DNA from: Thermanaerovibrio acidaminovorans DSM 6589
GTDB taxonomy: Bacteria; Synergistota; Synergistia; Synergistales; Synergistaceae
Assembly (NCBI RefSeq): GCF_000024905.1
Contig: NC_013522.1
Span: 1 to 64,000 of the forward strand
Direction: 5' to 3'
DNA length: 64,000 nt
Below the pieces are notes generated by a model. That model had not been told where the DNA came from and ran no database searches. It was given only the letters and a program-made list of their open reading frames with translations. Below are positions 3,889 to 29,138 of this stretch, in pieces (position 1 is the first letter of the stretch; each line of letters starts with the position of its first letter). The position numbers were made by a program, and so were the translations under genes.

Positions 3889-5757
3889 TTGAATCGTGGG
3901 GATGACTTCTACCCGGTTGTGGTGGTGGGGGGCGGCCATGCGGGGTGCGAGGCGGCCCTGGCTTCCGCCCGGATGGGGGTGCGCACCCTGCTGCTCAACA
4001 TGAACCTGGAGAACACCGCCCTTATGGCCTGCAACCCCTCCATAGGGGGCCCCGCCAAGGGGCACCTAACCCGGGAGGTGGACGCCATGGGGGGCTTTCA
4101 GGCCAAGGCGGCGGACCGATCCGCCCTGCACGTCAGGTGGCTTAACACCTCCAAGGGGCCCGCAGTGAGGACCCTTCGGATCCAGTGCGACATGTGGGAG
4201 TTTCACAGGGCCTACCGGCTCCAGGTGGAGTCCCAGCCCAACCTCCACGTCCTCCAGGCGGAGGCGGTGGACCTATGGGTGGAGGATCGCCGGATAAGGG
4301 GGGTCAGGACCTCCCTTGGGCAGGTGGTGGAGTGCCTTGCGGTGATCCTCTCTCCTGGCACCTACAGCGGAGCTAGGGTGTACATAGGTCTGGATCGATT
4401 CCAGGCGGGGCCCATGGGGAACCTGGGGTCCTATCGTCTTGCGGAGTCGTTGATGTCCCTGGGGCTCAAGCTGGGCAGGCTCAAGACCGGGACCCCTCCC
4501 AGGCTCCACCGGGACTCCATAGACTGGGATTCGATACCGCACCAGGAGGGGGAGGAGGAGCCCTGCGCCATGAGCGTCTTCTCCGAGCCCCGGGTGGTGT
4601 CCGGCTTCTTCTGCGGTTGCACCAGGACCAACCTGGAGACCCACCGGATCATAATCGAGGCCCTGGACCGGAGCCCCCTCTACACTGGGCTCATAGAGGG
4701 AGTTGGGCCCAGGTACTGTCCGTCCATCGAGGACAAGGTGGTCCGTTTCCCCCACCGGGACTCCCATCCGGTCTTCCTGGAGCCGGTGGGCAAGGATTCC
4801 AACGAGGTCTACGTCCAGAACTTCTCCACGTCGTTGCCCTACGACGTTCAGGTCCGGATGGTTAGGACCCTGCCGGGATGCGAGGGGGCCAGGATACTTA
4901 AGCCCGGTTACGCCATAGAGTACTGGTACTCGGATCCAAGGCAGCTGGAGCCCTGGCTGGAGGTGAAGGGCCTTGCGGGGCTCTTCATGGCGGGGCAGGT
5001 GAACGGCACCTCCGGCTACGAGGAGGCGGCCTCCCAGGGTCTGGTGGCGGGGGTGAACGGGGCCCTGAGGGCCATGGGGGTCAACGAACCCTTCGTGCTG
5101 GGCCGTCACGAGGCCTACGTGGGGGTCCTGATCGACGATCTGGTGACCAAGGGGACCGACGAGCCCTACCGGATGCTCACCAGCCGCTGTGAGCACCGGC
5201 TGAGGCTTAGGCACGACAATGCGGACCGGAGGCTGTCCTTCAGGGCCCGGGAGCTGGGGCTCCTGGACGACCTTAGCTGGGGCGTGGTGATGTCCCGGAT
5301 GGAGGACCAGAGGAAGCTCCGGGAGGCGCTAGAAGGGGCGGTGCTGAAGCCGGACTTCGTGAACCCCAGGCTGAGGGAGCTGGGTTCCTCGCCGGTGGAA
5401 GAGCCCGTTAGGGCCCTGGAGCTCCTTAGAAGGCCGGAGGTGACCTGGGAGACGTTGAGGGATCTCACCCGCATCGGGGGCCCGTCTGAGTCGTGGCGGT
5501 CCGTGGAGGTGGAGGAGAAGTACCGGGGCTACGTGGCCCGGGAGGACCGGCGGGTGGAGCGGATGAGCCGGATGGACCAGGTGAGGATCCCGGAGGGATT
5601 CGACTTCGGGTCCGTGAGGGGGCTTCTAAGGGAGAGCCTGGAGAAGCTGAACCGGGTTCGGCCCAGGACGCTGGGCCAGGCGAGCCGCATATCCGGCGTG
5701 ACGCCCGCGGACGTGGAGCTCATCTGGATGCACCTCGAGGGGGGTGATGGCCCTTGA
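3889..5757 (+). CDS. mnmG: tRNA uridine-5-carboxymethylaminomethyl modification enzyme MnmG (GidA)
   Basis: MnmG is the FAD-containing partner of MnmE in making the cmnm5 group at U34 of certain tRNAs. The 622-residue protein starts with the dinucleotide-binding segment VVVGGGHAGCEAA near residues 10-22 and carries the family signatures ACNPSIGGPAKGHL (about 46-59), CPSIEDKVVRFP and GTSGYEEAASQG. The start is TTG, 6 bases after the recF stop, with the ribosome site inside the end of recF. mnmE is not in the window. It is most likely cotranscribed with recF and the following DciA-like gene. Confidence 0.95.
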   Translation: MNRGDDFYPVVVVGGGHAGCEAALASARMGVRTLLLNMNLENTALMACNPSIGGPAKGHLTREVDAMGGFQAKAADRSALHVRWLNTSKGPAVRTLRIQCDMWEFHRAYRLQVESQPNLHVLQAEAVDLWVEDRRIRGVRTSLGQVVECLAVILSPGTYSGARVYIGLDRFQAGPMGNLGSYRLAESLMSLGLKLGRLKTGTPPRLHRDSIDWDSIPHQEGEEEPCAMSVFSEPRVVSGFFCGCTRTNLETHRIIIEALDRSPLYTGLIEGVGPRYCPSIEDKVVRFPHRDSHPVFLEPVGKDSNEVYVQNFSTSLPYDVQVRMVRTLPGCEGARILKPGYAIEYWYSDPRQLEPWLEVKGLAGLFMAGQVNGTSGYEEAASQGLVAGVNGALRAMGVNEPFVLGRHEAYVGVLIDDLVTKGTDEPYRMLTSRCEHRLRLRHDNADRRLSFRARELGLLDDLSWGVVMSRMEDQRKLREALEGAVLKPDFVNPRLRELGSSPVEEPVRALELLRRPEVTWETLRDLTRIGGPSESWRSVEVEEKYRGYVAREDRRVERMSRMDQVRIPEGFDFGSVRGLLRESLEKLNRVRPRTLGQASRISGVTPADVELIWMHLEGGDGP

Positions 5758-22517: not shown

Positions 22518-22560
22518 TCCCCCCAAGGGATCTAGGGTCCCGGTATTTAAAAAACTTGAA

Positions 22561-22710
22561 CTGCTTCGGGTGAACGGGAAGCCGGTGAAAGTCCGGCGCG
22601 GACCCGCCACTGTAAGCCTGACTCTGCGAGCGTTATCCACTGGGGATTTGGATCCCTGGGAAGGGGCCCGTTAGGGGATGAGGGTGAGCCAGGAGACCGG
22701 CCCGGGGCAG
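22561..22710 (+). promoter_or_regulatory. Cobalamin riboswitch aptamer
   Basis: The conserved cobalamin aptamer core is plain: GGGAAGCCGGTGAAAGTCCG (about 22576-22595), then GACCCGCCACTGTAA (about 22601-22615) and GAGCCAGGAGACC in the 3' half (22686-22698). The ends close as a 10-bp P1 helix, 22561-22570 with 22701-22710, using two G-U pairs. These are the classical B12-box features, so ligand class is safe; adenosyl versus aqua/methyl preference is not decided here. It controls the aconitase gene, not a cobalamin transport or synthesis gene. Confidence 0.95.
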
Positions 22711-22722
22711 CGGCGGGAGAAG

Positions 22723-22843
22723 TCCGCGGAGATCGGACGTTCTACCGGGGTGACGCCATCAGGGTGGGCTGGGTCCTTCGTACCCTCCTTGTGGCATTGC
22801 ACGGATAGTTGGATCTTCGCGGAAGCGGAGGTCCATTTTTTTT
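22723..22843 (+). terminator. Riboswitch expression platform: terminator with competing antiterminator
   Basis: The terminator stem is GGATCTTCGC (22811-22820) with GCGGAGGTCC (22825-22834), a GGAA tetraloop and eight T residues (22836-22843). An alternative helix pairs TCCGCGGAGATC (22723-22734), just 3' of the aptamer, with GATCTTCGCGGA (22812-22823), 12 bp with one G-U, and would disrupt the terminator. This predicts transcription attenuation: cobalamin bound, terminator on; cobalamin absent, read-through into aconitase. Confidence 0.9.
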
Positions 22844-22889
22844 GATGCGGTAGCTTTGCTTATCTATCTAAAGAAAGGAGCTGTTGACC

Positions 22890-24824
22890 GTGGGACTCAC
22901 GCTAACCGAGAAGATCTTGAACCCTCACGTGGTTGAGGGAAGGCCTGAGAGGGGGGAGAGGGTAGGTATCAGGATTGACCAGACCCTCACCCAGGATGCC
23001 ACCGGTACCATGACGTATCTCCAATTCGAGGCCATAGGAGTGGAGCGGGTGAGGACGGAGCTCTCGGTTAGCTACGTGGATCACAACATGATCCAGGAGG
23101 ATTTCAAGAACCCGGATGACCATCGGTACCTGATGGACGTGGCCAAGAAATACGGGATAGTCTTCTCCCCCCCGGGCAACGGCATCTGTCACCAGCTTCA
23201 CGTGGAGCGCTTCGCGGTTCCGGGCAGGACTCTCCTGGGCAGCGACTCTCACACCCCCACCTCCGGCGGGGTGGGGATGCTGGCCATCGGAGCGGGGGGC
23301 ATGGACGTGGCCTTGGCAATGGCGGGGGAGCCCTTCTACGTCAACTACCCTAGGATAGTAAAGGTGCACCTGACCGGCCGTCTTGGCCCCTTCGTCTCCG
23401 CCAAGGACGTGATCCTGGAGGTGCTGCGCCGCATAGGGGTCAAGGGCGGGGTTGGCAAGGTGCTGGAGTACTGCGGTCCCGGTGTTGAGACCCTGTCGGT
23501 GCCAGAGCGGGCCACCATGGCCAACATGGGGGCCGAGACGGGGGCCACCTCCTCCATCTTCCCCAGTGACCAGGTTACCCGCCGTTGGCTGGCCGCTCAG
23601 GGCAGGGAGGAGGCCTTCGTGCCCTTGGAGGCGGACCCGGACGGGGTCTACGACCAGGAGATAGAGATAGACCTGTCCCGAGTGGAGCCCCTGGTGGCGC
23701 TGCCCCACCAGCCGGACAACGTGGTCCCCGTGAGGGAGGTGGCGGGGATGGAGATCCAGCAGGTCATGTTCGGCTCCTGCACCAACTCCTCCCTCCGGGA
23801 CCTGGAGTCGGTGGCCCACATCCTGGGGGACGGGCCGGCGCACCCGGAGGTGGACGCGGGCGTATCCCCCGGGAGCCGCCAGGTGCTGCACCACATAGCC
23901 GCCTCCGGCGCCCTGGAGAGGATCCTCTCCGCCGGGGTCAGGATCCTGGAGGTGAGCTGTGGGGCCTGCATAGGCATGGGCTTCGCTCCCCCCACCGAGG
24001 GGGTCTCCCTGAGGACCATAAACCGCAACTTCCTGGGCCGCTGCGGCCATAAGACGGGTAAGGTTTGTCTGGTTAGTCCCGAAACTGCCGCCGCCTCCGC
24101 TGTGGAGGGGAGACTGACGGATCCAAGGGACTTCGCCCAGCGCCGGGGTCTTAAGCCCTTCGTCTTCGTCCAGCCCGAGAGGTTCCACGTGGACGACCGG
24201 CGGTTCGTGTTCCCCCCCGAGGACGGATCTTCGATCCAGATCCGCCGGGGGCCAAACATAGCGCCCTTGCCCGCCATGGAGCCCCTGGGGGAAATGGTCT
24301 GCGGCCTGGTGCTTCTGAAGGTTGGGGACGATATAACCACCGATCACATAATGCCCGCGGGGGCCAAGGTCCTGCCCCTGAGGAGCAACGTCCCGGCCAT
24401 ATCAAAACACGTTTTCCAGGTGGTGGACGGCACCTTCCCCGAGAGGGCCCTGGCCTCCGGCGGTGGCTTCGTTGTGGGGGGCGCCAACTACGGACAGGGT
24501 TCCAGCCGGGAGCACGCTGCCCTGGCCCCCCGCTACCTGGGGGTGAAGGCGGTGCTGGTGAAGAGCTTCGCCCGGATCCACCTGGCCAACCTGGTGAACT
24601 TCGGTATCCTGCCCCTGGTCTTCCAGGATCCGGCGGACTACGACCGGATAGACCAGGGGGACCGGTTGGAGCTGGCCACCGATGAGGTGCGGGCCGGATC
24701 GGTCTTCCGGGTTACCGACGTCACCAAGGGCATCCAGGTGCCCTGCACCACCCCGGTGGGGGAGGAGGACCTCAATGTGATAATGGCCGGCGGCAGGCTC
24801 AACTACGTTAAGGCCCGACGATAG
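22890..24824 (+). CDS. acnA: Aconitate hydratase (aconitase), short Aquifex-type
   Basis: It interconverts citrate and isocitrate using a 4Fe-4S cluster. Cluster ligands are visible as GSCTNSS (Cys about 297) and SCGACIG (Cys about 357 and 360). The active-site segments GSDSHTPTSGG and, in the swivel domain, NYGQGSSREHAAL are intact. The length of about 644 residues fits the short aconitase group found in Aquifex and anaerobes rather than the 890-residue AcnA of enterobacteria. GTG at 22890 lies 9 bases behind AAAGGAG and is preferred; TTG at 22884 is too close to it. The gene is under the cobalamin riboswitch and precedes isocitrate dehydrogenase and citrate lyase. Confidence 0.93.
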   Translation: MGLTLTEKILNPHVVEGRPERGERVGIRIDQTLTQDATGTMTYLQFEAIGVERVRTELSVSYVDHNMIQEDFKNPDDHRYLMDVAKKYGIVFSPPGNGICHQLHVERFAVPGRTLLGSDSHTPTSGGVGMLAIGAGGMDVALAMAGEPFYVNYPRIVKVHLTGRLGPFVSAKDVILEVLRRIGVKGGVGKVLEYCGPGVETLSVPERATMANMGAETGATSSIFPSDQVTRRWLAAQGREEAFVPLEADPDGVYDQEIEIDLSRVEPLVALPHQPDNVVPVREVAGMEIQQVMFGSCTNSSLRDLESVAHILGDGPAHPEVDAGVSPGSRQVLHHIAASGALERILSAGVRILEVSCGACIGMGFAPPTEGVSLRTINRNFLGRCGHKTGKVCLVSPETAAASAVEGRLTDPRDFAQRRGLKPFVFVQPERFHVDDRRFVFPPEDGSSIQIRRGPNIAPLPAMEPLGEMVCGLVLLKVGDDITTDHIMPAGAKVLPLRSNVPAISKHVFQVVDGTFPERALASGGGFVVGGANYGQGSSREHAALAPRYLGVKAVLVKSFARIHLANLVNFGILPLVFQDPADYDRIDQGDRLELATDEVRAGSVFRVTDVTKGIQVPCTTPVGEEDLNVIMAGGRLNYVKARR

Positions 24825-24867
24825 GGCAATTATGATAATTCGGTAAAGCGAAGCAAAGAAAAAGGTT

Positions 24868-24988
24868 CCCCGGGGGCGGCCCTCTCGGAAGACGTAAACC
24901 CTTGCCCAGTTTGCTCCCCTTCCGGAGACGGCCAAAAGGTACCGAACGGCAGTAGCGCCTCCGCTTCCGCACCCCGGGGCTTTTTTTT
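24868..24988 (+). promoter_or_regulatory. Unassigned structured RNA leader with terminator between acnA and icd
   Basis: The 301-base gap between acnA and icd contains a dense fold. A closing helix pairs CCCCGGGG (24868-24875) with CCCCGGGG (24972-24979), one base before a run of eight T (24981-24988). Inside is a long arm: GGCC (24878-24881) with GGCC (24930-24933), TCTC (24883-24886) with GAGA (24925-24928), GGAAG (24887-24891) with CTTCC (24919-24923) and GTAAAC (24894-24899) with GTTTGC (24909-24914), capped by a nine-base loop. A separate hairpin GGGGCC-TT-GGCCCC (25087-25100) lies just before the icd ribosome site. It matches no riboswitch class I know. An attenuator or riboswitch is inferred. 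Confidence 0.55.
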
Positions 24989-25125
24989 AACTACCGCCAC
25001 GTTTTGCCTCTTGATGAGGGCTACGCGGGCTACATGGGTTGCCCGGATCCGTTGGCCGCGGACGGGGTGACTTCGGATCCCATAGCGGGGCCTTGGCCCC
25101 GAAGGAAAGGGAGGGAGCAGGTGTG

Positions 25126-26379
25126 ATGAGGTTTGAGGGACTGGAGCTCAAGATCTACAAGGCCCCCGAGAGCGGGGAGAGGATCCTCTTCGATGGTGGC
25201 CGCCTTCAGGTGCCGGACGAGCCGGTGATCCCCTACGTGGAGGGGGACGGCATCGGGGTGGACATAACCCCCGCCATGAGGATGGTGCTGGACCAGGCGG
25301 TGAGGAAGGCCTACGGGGGCAGGAGGAGGCTCCACTGGTGGGAGATCTACGCGGGTCAGAAGGCCATGGACATGTTCGGCACCGCGATCCCCGAGGACTC
25401 CTTCAACGCGGTGCGCTACTTCCGGGTGGCCATAAAGGGTCCCCTCACCACCCCGGTTGGAGGCGGCTTCAGGAGCCTGAACGTGGCGTTCAGGCAGGAG
25501 CTGGATCTCTTCGCCTGCGTGAGGCCCGTTAGGTGGTTCGAGGGGGTCCCCGCCCCTCTGAAGCGTCCCCAGGACGTGGACATGGTGATCTTCCGGGAGA
25601 ACACCGAGGACCTGTACGCGGGGATAGAGTGGGAGGAGGGTACCGATGAGTGCCGCCGGGTGATAGAGTTCCTCAAGGGTATGGGGAAGGAGATCCGGGT
25701 GGACTCAGGCATAGGCATAAAGCCCATCTCCAGGACGGGGACCGAGCGGCTGGTCCGGATGGCTATCCAGTACGCCATCGCCAACCGCCGCAAGTCCGTA
25801 ACCCTGGTCCACAAGGGGAACATAATGAAGTTCACCGAGGGGGCCTTCATGAAGTGGGGCTACGAGCTGGCCAAGCGGGAGTTCGGGCACGTGTGCATCA
25901 CCGAGCAGGAGGTGTCGGAGCTCCACGGGGGCGTGGTGCCGGAGGGTAAGATAGTGATAAAGGACCGGATCGCAGACGCCATGTTCCAGCAGATCCTCCT
26001 GCGTCCTTCGGAGTACGACGTTTTGGCCATGCCCAACCTGAACGGGGACTACATGTCCGACGCCCTGGCGGCGGCGGTGGGGGGCCTTGGTCTGGCCCCG
26101 GGGGCCAACATGAACGACCAGGTGGCCTTCTTCGAGGCCACCCACGGCACCGCCCCCAAGTACGCCGGTCAGGACAAGGTTAACCCCGGCTCCCTGATCC
26201 TCTCCGGGGTGCTCATGTTGGAGCACCTGGGCTGGAGGGAGGCGGCGGAGCTGGTGATAAGGGGCATGGAGAGGGCCATAAGCGAAGGGGTGGTAACCTA
26301 CGACCTGGCCCGCCAGCGGGAGGGGGCCCGGGAGGTCTCCTGCTCCGCCTTCGCCAGGGCCATATGCGAGAGGATGTAG
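25126..26379 (+). CDS. icd: Isocitrate dehydrogenase, NADP-dependent
   Basis: It interconverts isocitrate and 2-oxoglutarate plus CO2. The protein of about 417 residues is the length of the E. coli enzyme. The substrate-binding serine lies in [15 protein letters not shown] (Ser about 117), and the coenzyme site [17 protein letters not shown] carries Lys 345-Tyr 346, the pair that selects NADP over NAD. I chose ATG at 25126 because of GGGAG 8 bases before it and because upstream codons have no family match. In this operon the enzyme may run toward isocitrate, since citrate lyase follows. Confidence 0.94.
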
Positions 26380-26397
26380 GTTAGCGGGGCGGATGAT

Positions 26398-26427
26398 GGC
26401 GGGGGATGGATCCCCCGCCGTTTGTTT
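26398..26427 (+). terminator. Intrinsic terminator between icd and citD
   Basis: GGCGGGGGA (26398-26406) pairs perfectly with TCCCCCGCC (26411-26419) around TGGA, followed by GTTTGTTT. It sits in the 64-base gap between icd and the chosen citD start and could make citDEF expression partly separate. Confidence 0.7.
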
Positions 26428-26443
26428 GGGGGGGGTGTTAGAG

Positions 26444-26710
26444 TTGATTGTGGAGTCTCGAGCGGGCACGCTGGAGTCCTCGGACTGTCTGGTGTGCGTG
26501 TACCCGTCGGACCGAGTGGAGGTTCGCCTCAAGGGGGTCTGCGCCAGGATGTACCCGGAGCGGACCCGGGCGCTGGTGGAGGAGGGGCTATGCCGGATGG
26601 GCATAACCGGTGCGCTGGTGGAGATCCAGGACCAGGGGGCCATCCTTCCCACCCTCAGGGCCCGGCTTAAGACCGCCCTGAGCAGGGCCGTTGGGGGTGT
26701 AGAGGGATGA
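26444..26710 (+). CDS. citD: Citrate lyase acyl carrier protein (gamma subunit)
   Basis: CitD carries the phosphoribosyl-dephospho-CoA prosthetic group that shuttles acetyl and citryl groups in citrate lyase. The 88-residue protein has the attachment motif AGTLESSD at residues 7-14 (the Ser of GTLES is the attachment site in the family) and a C-terminal DQGAILPTLRARLKTAL matching the family pattern. I chose TTG at 26444, preceded by a G-rich ribosome site at about 26427-26436; GTG 26435 or ATG 26393 would extend it. It overlaps citE by 4 bases. citC, citX and citG, needed for activation, are not in the window. Confidence 0.88.
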   Translation: MIVESRAGTLESSDCLVCVYPSDRVEVRLKGVCARMYPERTRALVEEGLCRMGITGALVEIQDQGAILPTLRARLKTALSRAVGGVEG

Positions 26711-27585
26711 GGCCCGTGAGGTCCATGCTTTACGTGCCGGGTAACAGCCCGGGGATGCTGCAGCACTGCGCCACCTTCGGGGCGGACAGCGTGCTTCTGG
26801 ACCTGGAGGACGCGGTGGCCCTGTCGGAGAAGGACGCGGCCCGGGACCTGGTGTGCGAGATGCTCAAGGTGCTGGACTTCGGGTCCGTGGTGGTCACCGT
26901 TCGGGTGAACGGGGCGGACACGGAGTTCTTCCAGGAGGACCTTAGGGCGGTGGTTCCCTTGAGGCCCCACGCGGTGAGGATCCCCAAGTGCTCCTCCCCG
27001 GAGGACGTGATCCTGGCGGACCGCCTCATGGGCCGGATAGAGGAGGAGCATGGGTTGCCGGTGGGCAGCGTGAGGATCCACGCCATGCTGGAGACCGCCC
27101 GCGGGGTGGTGAACGCCCTTGAGATAGGTCGCAGTAGCCCCCGGGTGGAGGCGCTGACTCTGGGAGGTCAGGACCTGACGGCGGACATGGGGGTGAGCAA
27201 GACCCGGGAGGGCTGGGAGCTCTTCGTGGCCCGTAGCCAGGTGGCGCTGGCGGCCCGGAGCCTTGGCCTTCAGGCGCTGGACACGGTTTGGGCTGACGTG
27301 GATGACCACCAGGGGCTTTACGAGGAGGCCCGCCGGGTGGTGGGGCTTGGCTTCACTGGCAAGGCGGCCATCCACCCGAGCCAGATAGAGTGGATCCACC
27401 GGGCCTTCGTGCCGGAGTTGTCGGAGGTGGAGCGGGCCCGCCGGATAGTGGATGCCGCCTGTAGGGCCCATGCGGAGGGCAAGGGGGTTGTGTCCGTGGA
27501 CGGCCGGATGGTGGACGCGCCGGTGGTGAGGCGGGCGGAGAACACCCTTCGTCTCTGGGAGATGGGGGAGGTGGAAGGTCTGTGA
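26707..27585 (+). CDS. citE: Citrate lyase beta subunit (citryl-ACP lyase)
   Basis: It cleaves citryl-ACP to acetyl-ACP and oxaloacetate. The 292-residue protein begins MRPVRSMLYVPGNSP and has the HpcH/HpaI aldolase-type motifs LLDLEDAV near residues 30-37, VRIPK near 93, and LGGQDLTADMGV. The C-terminal part holds AAIHPSQIEWIH, standard for CitE. The ATG overlaps citD (ATGA) and the end overlaps citF (GTGA), so D, E and F should be translated together. Confidence 0.94.
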   Translation: MRPVRSMLYVPGNSPGMLQHCATFGADSVLLDLEDAVALSEKDAARDLVCEMLKVLDFGSVVVTVRVNGADTEFFQEDLRAVVPLRPHAVRIPKCSSPEDVILADRLMGRIEEEHGLPVGSVRIHAMLETARGVVNALEIGRSSPRVEALTLGGQDLTADMGVSKTREGWELFVARSQVALAARSLGLQALDTVWADVDDHQGLYEEARRVVGLGFTGKAAIHPSQIEWIHRAFVPELSEVERARRIVDAACRAHAEGKGVVSVDGRMVDAPVVRRAENTLRLWEMGEVEGL

Positions 27586-29138
27586 GGTTTGTGGAGAACG
27601 CCATAGGACGTCCGGTGCCCCTTGAGGTTCCCGGTTTCGGTGCCGTGATCCCCTATGGTGGTCCGTTCTGCCGCCTGGGAGAGGAGGTTCCCCGGGTGAG
27701 CCCCCCAATGAGGGGCTATCCGGCCCGGAGGGACAAGGTGACCCATGACGTGGAGGAGGCCATAAGGAGGTCCGGGCTGGAGAGCGGCATGACCGTGTCG
27801 TTCCACCATCATCTGAGGAACGGTGACGCGGTGATGTGCCGTGTGCTGGAGGCCTGCGAGAGGCTTGGTATAAGGGATCTTACGCTGGCGCCCAGCTCGC
27901 TGACCGACGCCCACGAGGAGGTGTCGGGTTTCGTCCGGCGCGGTGTGGTGAGGATGATCCACACCTCCGGCGTTAGGGGTGAGGTTGGTAAGGCCATAAG
28001 CCGGGGAGAGCTGGAGGTTCCGGTGGTGATCCACAGCCACGGCGGCCGGGCCCGGGCGATAGAGGAGGGAAGCATAAGGATAGACGTGGCGTTCCTTGGG
28101 GCCCCCAAGTGCGACCGGATGGGGAACTTTACCGGCATGCTGGGCAGGTCCGCGTGCGGGTCGCTGGGTTACGCCCAGCAGGACGCCCGCTACGCCCGTC
28201 ACGTGGTGGCGGTGACGGACGACCTTTCGGAGGATCCGCTTGGTGTGGTGTCGGTGCCCCAGTATCTGGTGGACCAGGTGCTGGTGGTGGACAGCCTTGG
28301 TGATCCCCGGAAGATAGCCACCGGTGCGGCCCGGATAACCCGCAACCCTGTGGACCTGAAGATTGCCCGGGACGCGTTTCGGCTGATCCTGGCGTCGGGA
28401 CTGATGGAGGACGGGGTGTCGTTTCAGGTGGGTGCTGGAGGGGCGAGCCTTGCGGTGGCCCGCTACGTGAGGGAGCACATGAGCGCCAAGGGTATCCGTG
28501 GCAGCTTCGGGTGTGGCGGTGTGACGGGTTACATGGCGCAGATGCTGGAGGAGGGTCTCTTCCGGGTCCTTTACGACGTTCAGAGCTTCGACGCGTCGGT
28601 GACGGGATCCATGTTGAGGAACCGGAACCACGTGGAGATAGACCAGTCGTGGTACGCGAACCCGCTGAACCGTGGTTGCGTGGTGAACCATTTGGACGTG
28701 GTGGTTCTTGCGGCGCTGGAGGTGGACGTGGATTTCAACGTGAACGTGCTGACCGGCCATGATGGTGTGTTGCGTGGTGCATCCGGTGGCCACTGCGACA
28801 CCGCGGCGGGGTCGAAGCTGTCGGTGGTGGTGCTTCCGTCGTTCCGGGGTGGAGTGCCGTCGATCCGGGAGCGGGTGGGATGTGTGGTGACCCCGGGGGA
28901 GACGGTGGACGCCATAGTGACCGAGCGGGGAGTGTGCGTGAACCCCCGTTGTGTGGATCTTGCGGAGTCCGCCAGGCGGATGGGCCTTTGCGTGAAGGAC
29001 ATAAGGGAGCTGAAGGAGGAGGTGGAGAGGCTGACCGGAGTTCCCCGGGAGGTTGAGGAGGACAGGAGCCGGGTGGTGGCGCTGGTGGAGTACCGGGACG
29101 GGAGCGTGATAGACACCGTTTTCCGGGTGGATTGCTGA
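27582..29138 (+). CDS. citF: Citrate lyase alpha subunit (citrate:acetyl-ACP transferase)
   Basis: CitF exchanges the acetyl group on the carrier protein for citrate. The 518-residue protein is of family length and starts with GTG overlapping citE. It shows the CitF N-terminus (FVENAIGRPVP) and the conserved stretch GGHCDTAAGSKLSVVVLP, with VFLG-type CoA-transferase architecture throughout. Together with CitD and CitE it forms the lyase that converts citrate to acetate and oxaloacetate. The operon appears to end 33-56 bases later at a GC-rich hairpin. Confidence 0.94.
   Translation: MRFVENAIGRPVPLEVPGFGAVIPYGGPFCRLGEEVPRVSPPMRGYPARRDKVTHDVEEAIRRSGLESGMTVSFHHHLRNGDAVMCRVLEACERLGIRDLTLAPSSLTDAHEEVSGFVRRGVVRMIHTSGVRGEVGKAISRGELEVPVVIHSHGGRARAIEEGSIRIDVAFLGAPKCDRMGNFTGMLGRSACGSLGYAQQDARYARHVVAVTDDLSEDPLGVVSVPQYLVDQVLVVDSLGDPRKIATGAARITRNPVDLKIARDAFRLILASGLMEDGVSFQVGAGGASLAVARYVREHMSAKGIRGSFGCGGVTGYMAQMLEEGLFRVLYDVQSFDASVTGSMLRNRNHVEIDQSWYANPLNRGCVVNHLDVVVLAALEVDVDFNVNVLTGHDGVLRGASGGHCDTAAGSKLSVVVLPSFRGGVPSIRERVGCVVTPGETVDAIVTERGVCVNPRCVDLAESARRMGLCVKDIRELKEEVERLTGVPREVEEDRSRVVALVEYRDGSVIDTVFRVDC

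Follow-up and report, generated by a model that had tools for sequence, protein, structure and literature searches.

The spacer between acnA and icd in Thermanaerovibrio acidaminovorans contains a helix followed by a run of Ts, and a preliminary description had proposed a new riboswitch or attenuator there. Does this spacer encode a regulatory RNA, and how might such an RNA act on the genes below acnA? We analyzed the window (the whole stretch of 64,000 nucleotides, from the closed 1,848,474-bp genome) and compared the locus across 188 Synergistota genomes. We concluded that the element is a real, evolutionarily conserved folded RNA, common to four related species only.

Position and fold of the element

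The features of the locus are collected in Table 1. The closing helix P1, in which CCCCGGGG pairs with a second CCCCGGGG, was confirmed by sequence and fold, as were the T8 run, separated from P1 by the single base C24980, and the stepped arm of 4+4+5+6 = 19 bp with its nine-base loop CCTTGCCCA (24900-24908). The earlier placement inside a citrate operon agrees with the Pfam assignments of the neighboring genes to aconitase, isocitrate dehydrogenase, and subunits of citrate lyase; citD, citE, and citF (26393..29138) form the putative remainder of the same operon as acnA-icd. The C-box CGCCTCCGCnTCC has one exact copy in the 64-kb window. T runs of at least 7 on the + strand of the window number only two, the T8 of the element, directly after a G+C-rich helix, and the T8 after the terminator-like hairpin of the cobalamin riboswitch. 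The folding energy is unexceptional for G+C-rich sequence (z = -0.86 for 24863-24988; 32 of 200 shuffles were equally stable).

Table 1. Features of the acnA-icd-citDEF locus, in window coordinates.
Feature	Position	Strand	Sequence or evidence
Cobalamin riboswitch aptamer, operon head, before acnA	22518..22719	+	RF00174, 105.5 bits
Terminator-like hairpin (followed by T8), downstream of cobalamin riboswitch	22810-22835	+	Sequence scan
acnA, aconitase, upstream of element	22884..24824	+	PF00330 and PF00694
P1 5' strand	24868..24875	+	CCCCGGGG; MFE folds; conserved in three congeners, compensated in G006
Alternative, P1-excluding strand	24871..24878	+	CGGGGGCG; predicted partner CGCCTCCG at 24956-24963
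Stepped arm P2/P3, 19 bp	24878..24933	+	MFE folds; both-side pair changes in G006
Arm helices	24878-24881/24930-24933, 24883-24886/24925-24928, 24887-24891/24919-24923, 24894-24899/24909-24914	+	MFE folds
Invariant TGCCC, apical loop of arm	24903..24907	+	Same in four of four genomes
Invariant C-rich box (C-box)	24956..24968	+	CGCCTCCGCnTCC; mostly unpaired once P1 forms
P1 3' strand	24972..24979	+	CCCCGGGG; would form the descending arm of the terminator; MFE folds
T8 run	24981..24988	+	Candidate intrinsic terminator tail
icd, isocitrate dehydrogenase family, downstream of element	25126..26379	+	PF00180
citD, citrate lyase subunit	26393-26710	+	citDEF Pfams: PF06857, PF03328, PF04223
citE, citrate lyase subunit	26707-27585	+	citDEF Pfams: PF06857, PF03328, PF04223
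citF, citrate lyase subunit	27582-29138	+	citDEF Pfams: PF06857, PF03328, PF04223

The statement that the element matches no recognised class held, as no gathering-level match in Rfam 15 was obtained at 24868-24988. A permissive Rfam search of 24600-25250 returned chance-level matches only (E 1.4-9.6), and there was no Rfam match to a T-box or tRNA-sensing leader up to E 10. No + strand frame of at least 20 aa overlaps the element, as was looked for with a leader-peptide attenuator in mind; the sole small + strand frame near it (40 aa, 25004-25126) lies downstream. Structured RNAs have been surveyed in one Synergistetes genome, that of Thermovirga lienii (PMC6429828), and nothing on riboswitches in Thermanaerovibrio was found in the open literature.

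Distribution and conservation in Synergistota

The carriers of the element are T. acidaminovorans, its congeners G001 and G002, which have a clear homologue in the same acnA-icd spacer, and G006, from another Synergistaceae genus (icd 81% identical), which has a diverged one there. A covariance model of the four sequences detected exactly four loci in the 188 genomes (E <= 5e-11, one per genome), all between acnA and icd, and the element was not found by this search in the remaining 184. The acnA-icd spacer measures 226-302 nt in the four carriers vs. 37-201 nt elsewhere; the element was not found in these other, short spacers of the phylum. A whole-spacer DNA search recovered only G001 and G002, besides one match of chance length, confined to the part of the query that comes from the 3' end of acnA. 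With a model built without G006, the G006 copy was weakly detected within its own locus (16.3 bits, E 0.13) and missed in a search of the whole G006 genome.

The next matches of the four-sequence model, from E 0.02 upward, were rejected as lying inside reading frames or being partial to the model. The weak match in G069 falls within a long reading frame, and that in G042 aligns only over the C-box and its flanks. A loop/box/P1 pattern scan of wider genome contigs gave 35 matches scattered over mostly G+C-rich taxa, which were rejected as chance; the best of them (29 bits, Phycisphaerae record L071) overlaps predicted reading frames. The four matches in a scan of viral contigs were judged chance as well. 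Taken by itself, the C-box lacks specificity in genomes this rich in G+C. The structure-free pattern of TGCCCnG, 28-58 bases, and CGCCTCCGCnTCC matched 8 times in the 188 Synergistota genomes, at the four spacers and four scattered sites, and the reversed pattern, used as a control, matched 5 times in the same genomes.

When folded separately, each of the four homologues gave a long stepped arm that is closed by P1 and bears TGCCC in its apical loop; in all of them the C-box precedes the P1 3' strand. The runs TTCCCCGGGGGCGGC and GCGCCTCCGC are identical across the three congeners. In the flanking genes, 4-fold-degenerate sites are only 52-61% identical, even from congener to congener; silent sites are thus near saturation and the conservation of the element reflects selection. 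The preliminary description had named covariation across relatives as a test, and compensating stem changes are indeed present in a hand-fitted alignment of the 4 sequences. This structural alignment (N for gaps, few insertions trimmed) was made by hand because MAFFT failed to align the G006 arm. In the G006 stems, 11 pairs were changed on both sides vs. 3.0 in shuffles (0 of 500 shuffles as high), counts that lean towards structure because the alignment was fitted to it. Shifting the partner strand as a sliding control abolished the pairing in this comparison. The covariation score was 0.42 vs. 0.16 shuffled, from 4 sequences, one of them divergent, hand-fitted and with insertions trimmed; given such an alignment, the covariation is support and not proof.

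Candidate modes of action

In the three congeners, P1 has a predicted competitor. The alternative helix comprises 8 bp (the duplex including the C-box has approximately -16.4 kcal/mol), and in folds of the growing transcript it appeared first and was replaced by P1 once the P1 3' strand was made. An antiterminator/terminator switch in these three species is plausible from the folding models. The alternative helix was not found in G006 folds despite an unchanged C-box, which may therefore be conserved for another reason. P1 had also been taken for a terminator in the preliminary description. The succession of P1 helix and T-run stands, but only the window (T8) and G002 (T6) have a good T-run, and those of G001 (TTTTCCC) and G006 (TTCTCCTTTT) are poor, so that termination cannot be what all four copies are conserved for.

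We see an even chance that the element is a lineage-specific cis-acting transcription attenuator within the acnA-icd-citDEF operon. The most defensible statement is that of a conserved cis-acting RNA that would attenuate transcription in T. acidaminovorans and G002, if not more widely, setting icd-citDEF below acnA. The stepped arm would fold first as RNA polymerase copies the spacer, and the P1 5' strand would then pair transiently with the C-box (24871-24878 with 24956-24963) in an antiterminator-like helix, which the emerging P1 3' strand would displace. P1 and T8 would halt a fraction of transcripts, with the proposed consequence of a lower level of icd-citDEF than of acnA. The invariant TGCCC and C-box may be contacted by a ligand, by a protein, or by other parts of the RNA. 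The published description of the species reports citrate lyase activity, whereas isocitrate dehydrogenase went undetected (PMC3035242). A low level of icd expression would agree with the latter result, a match that is only suggestive because the genome has two more citF loci (G000:C1:364573-365967 and 1417251-1418642) that could supply lyase. A genome search showed no repeat of the RNA element at either citF locus.

The aptamer-like architecture proposed earlier is borne out as far as a structured RNA, conserved single-stranded motifs, and exclusive P1 pairing (three congeners) are concerned, but its spread is limited to four species in two genera, narrower than that of most riboswitch classes. 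An orphan riboswitch, with the TGCCC loop and C-box as its pocket and a ligand tipping the RNA towards either the P1 terminator or the alternative helix, appears unlikely. The unpaired motifs are invariant while the stems compensate, the helices are mutually exclusive in three congeners, and the element directly precedes icd, before which riboswitch candidates are known in Proteobacteria (the icd and icd-II motifs; PMC8632094). These points have to be set against a single locus in only four species, a switch helix that is not kept in G006, and an intercistronic position, with a cobalamin riboswitch already controlling the operon. The ligand would be a citrate-, isocitrate- or 2-oxoglutarate-like metabolite; citrate, isocitrate, and 2-oxoglutarate themselves, as named in the preliminary description, are guesses. 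It is rather unlikely that the element represents a narrowly distributed new intercistronic riboswitch class, through which the head of the operon would respond to B12 and its interior to a metabolite of the citrate cycle. A fixed terminator or processing barrier at the acnA mRNA 3' end, stabilizing the message and setting the acnA:icd ratio with no switch, is an unlikely account too: P1 plus T8 would be enough for partial termination, and the long spacer occurs only in carriers of the element, but the invariant TGCCC and 12 defined C-box bases would be left unexplained while the stems vary.

The invariance of these unpaired C-rich motifs (TGCCC and CGCCTCC, with the Shine-Dalgarno-complementary CCTCC) could also point to action on ribosome-binding sites, either of targets, by a trans-acting small RNA from the acnA 3' region, or of icd itself, masked in cis by the C-box. 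Consistent with such a role, two copies have a 3' end resembling a terminator, and duplexes of the C-box with the icd start are predicted (-18.4, -17.3, -14.3, and -11.7 kcal/mol, values that have no control). We hold it to be improbable, as CCTCC-GGAGG complementarity is expected by chance with any gene, a scan before the element gave no conserved promoter, the G002 element begins ∼10 nt past the acnA stop codon, and the G001 and G006 copies have poor 3' ends. Bacterial aconitases are known to bind mRNA in other species, and the location of the element at the acnA 3' end would suit autoregulation, with apo-aconitase or a different protein bound there. The element sequence lacks an iron-responsive-element-like CAGUGN loop, however, and acnA homologues occur in many relatives without the element, which makes a protein site of this kind highly improbable.

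The proposed attenuator shares predicted exclusive helices and a G+C-rich helix followed by a T-run with general transcription attenuators and attenuating riboswitches. It differs from them in that the aptamer-closing helix itself would terminate and in that only two copies out of four retain the T-run. Its likeness to the icd and icd-II motif RNAs of Proteobacteria is that of a structured candidate RNA right before icd (PMC8632094). The latter are three-stem junctions, with icd-II base-paired to the ribosome-binding site (PMC8632094), whereas the element has a closing helix round a single arm and a terminator-like tail, and resides in the acnA-icd spacer of Synergistaceae; it has no icd-family Rfam match at E up to 10. 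The cobalamin riboswitch of the same operon resembles the proposed attenuator as an RNA that regulates in cis, and a terminator-like hairpin lies downstream of it, but its sequence and architecture are unrelated to those of the element, which scores nothing against RF00174.

If functional, the element would add a second point of RNA control to the operon, besides the cobalamin riboswitch at its head, and this point would lie precisely where aconitase gives way to isocitrate dehydrogenase/citrate lyase. A simple system would then be at hand for studying how an anaerobe divides its carbon between the cleavage of citrate and the oxidative route. Should a ligand be bound, the element would represent a new aptamer class.

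Further observations on the operon

A cobalamin riboswitch precedes acnA-icd-citDEF operons in at least 7 Synergistota genomes (L104, L105, L106, L108, L110, L111, L112), and some of these operon-heading riboswitches are doubled, in tandem or divergent arrangement. G049 and G057 (L107-L110) each carry the operon twice, with cobalamin riboswitches before one copy only. The T. acidaminovorans genome encodes methylmalonyl-CoA mutase, and glutamate mutase E was looked for in it and not found; because of this combination, the operon could serve as a bypass that does not depend on B12 and is turned on under B12 shortage.

The icd gene of G001 (L105 4581-4706) contains one extra base around codon 40 (GGCGATAGGGG vs. 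GGCATCGGGG) that splits the frame; the gene is either a pseudogene or affected by a sequencing error. A short motif is present in the spacer downstream of the element, TTGGCCGCGG at 25040-25062 of the window and CTGGCCGC in the congeners (L006, ∼4025-4050; L007, ∼1346-1372 on the - strand). The motif is complementary to GCGGC(C) at 24877-24881.
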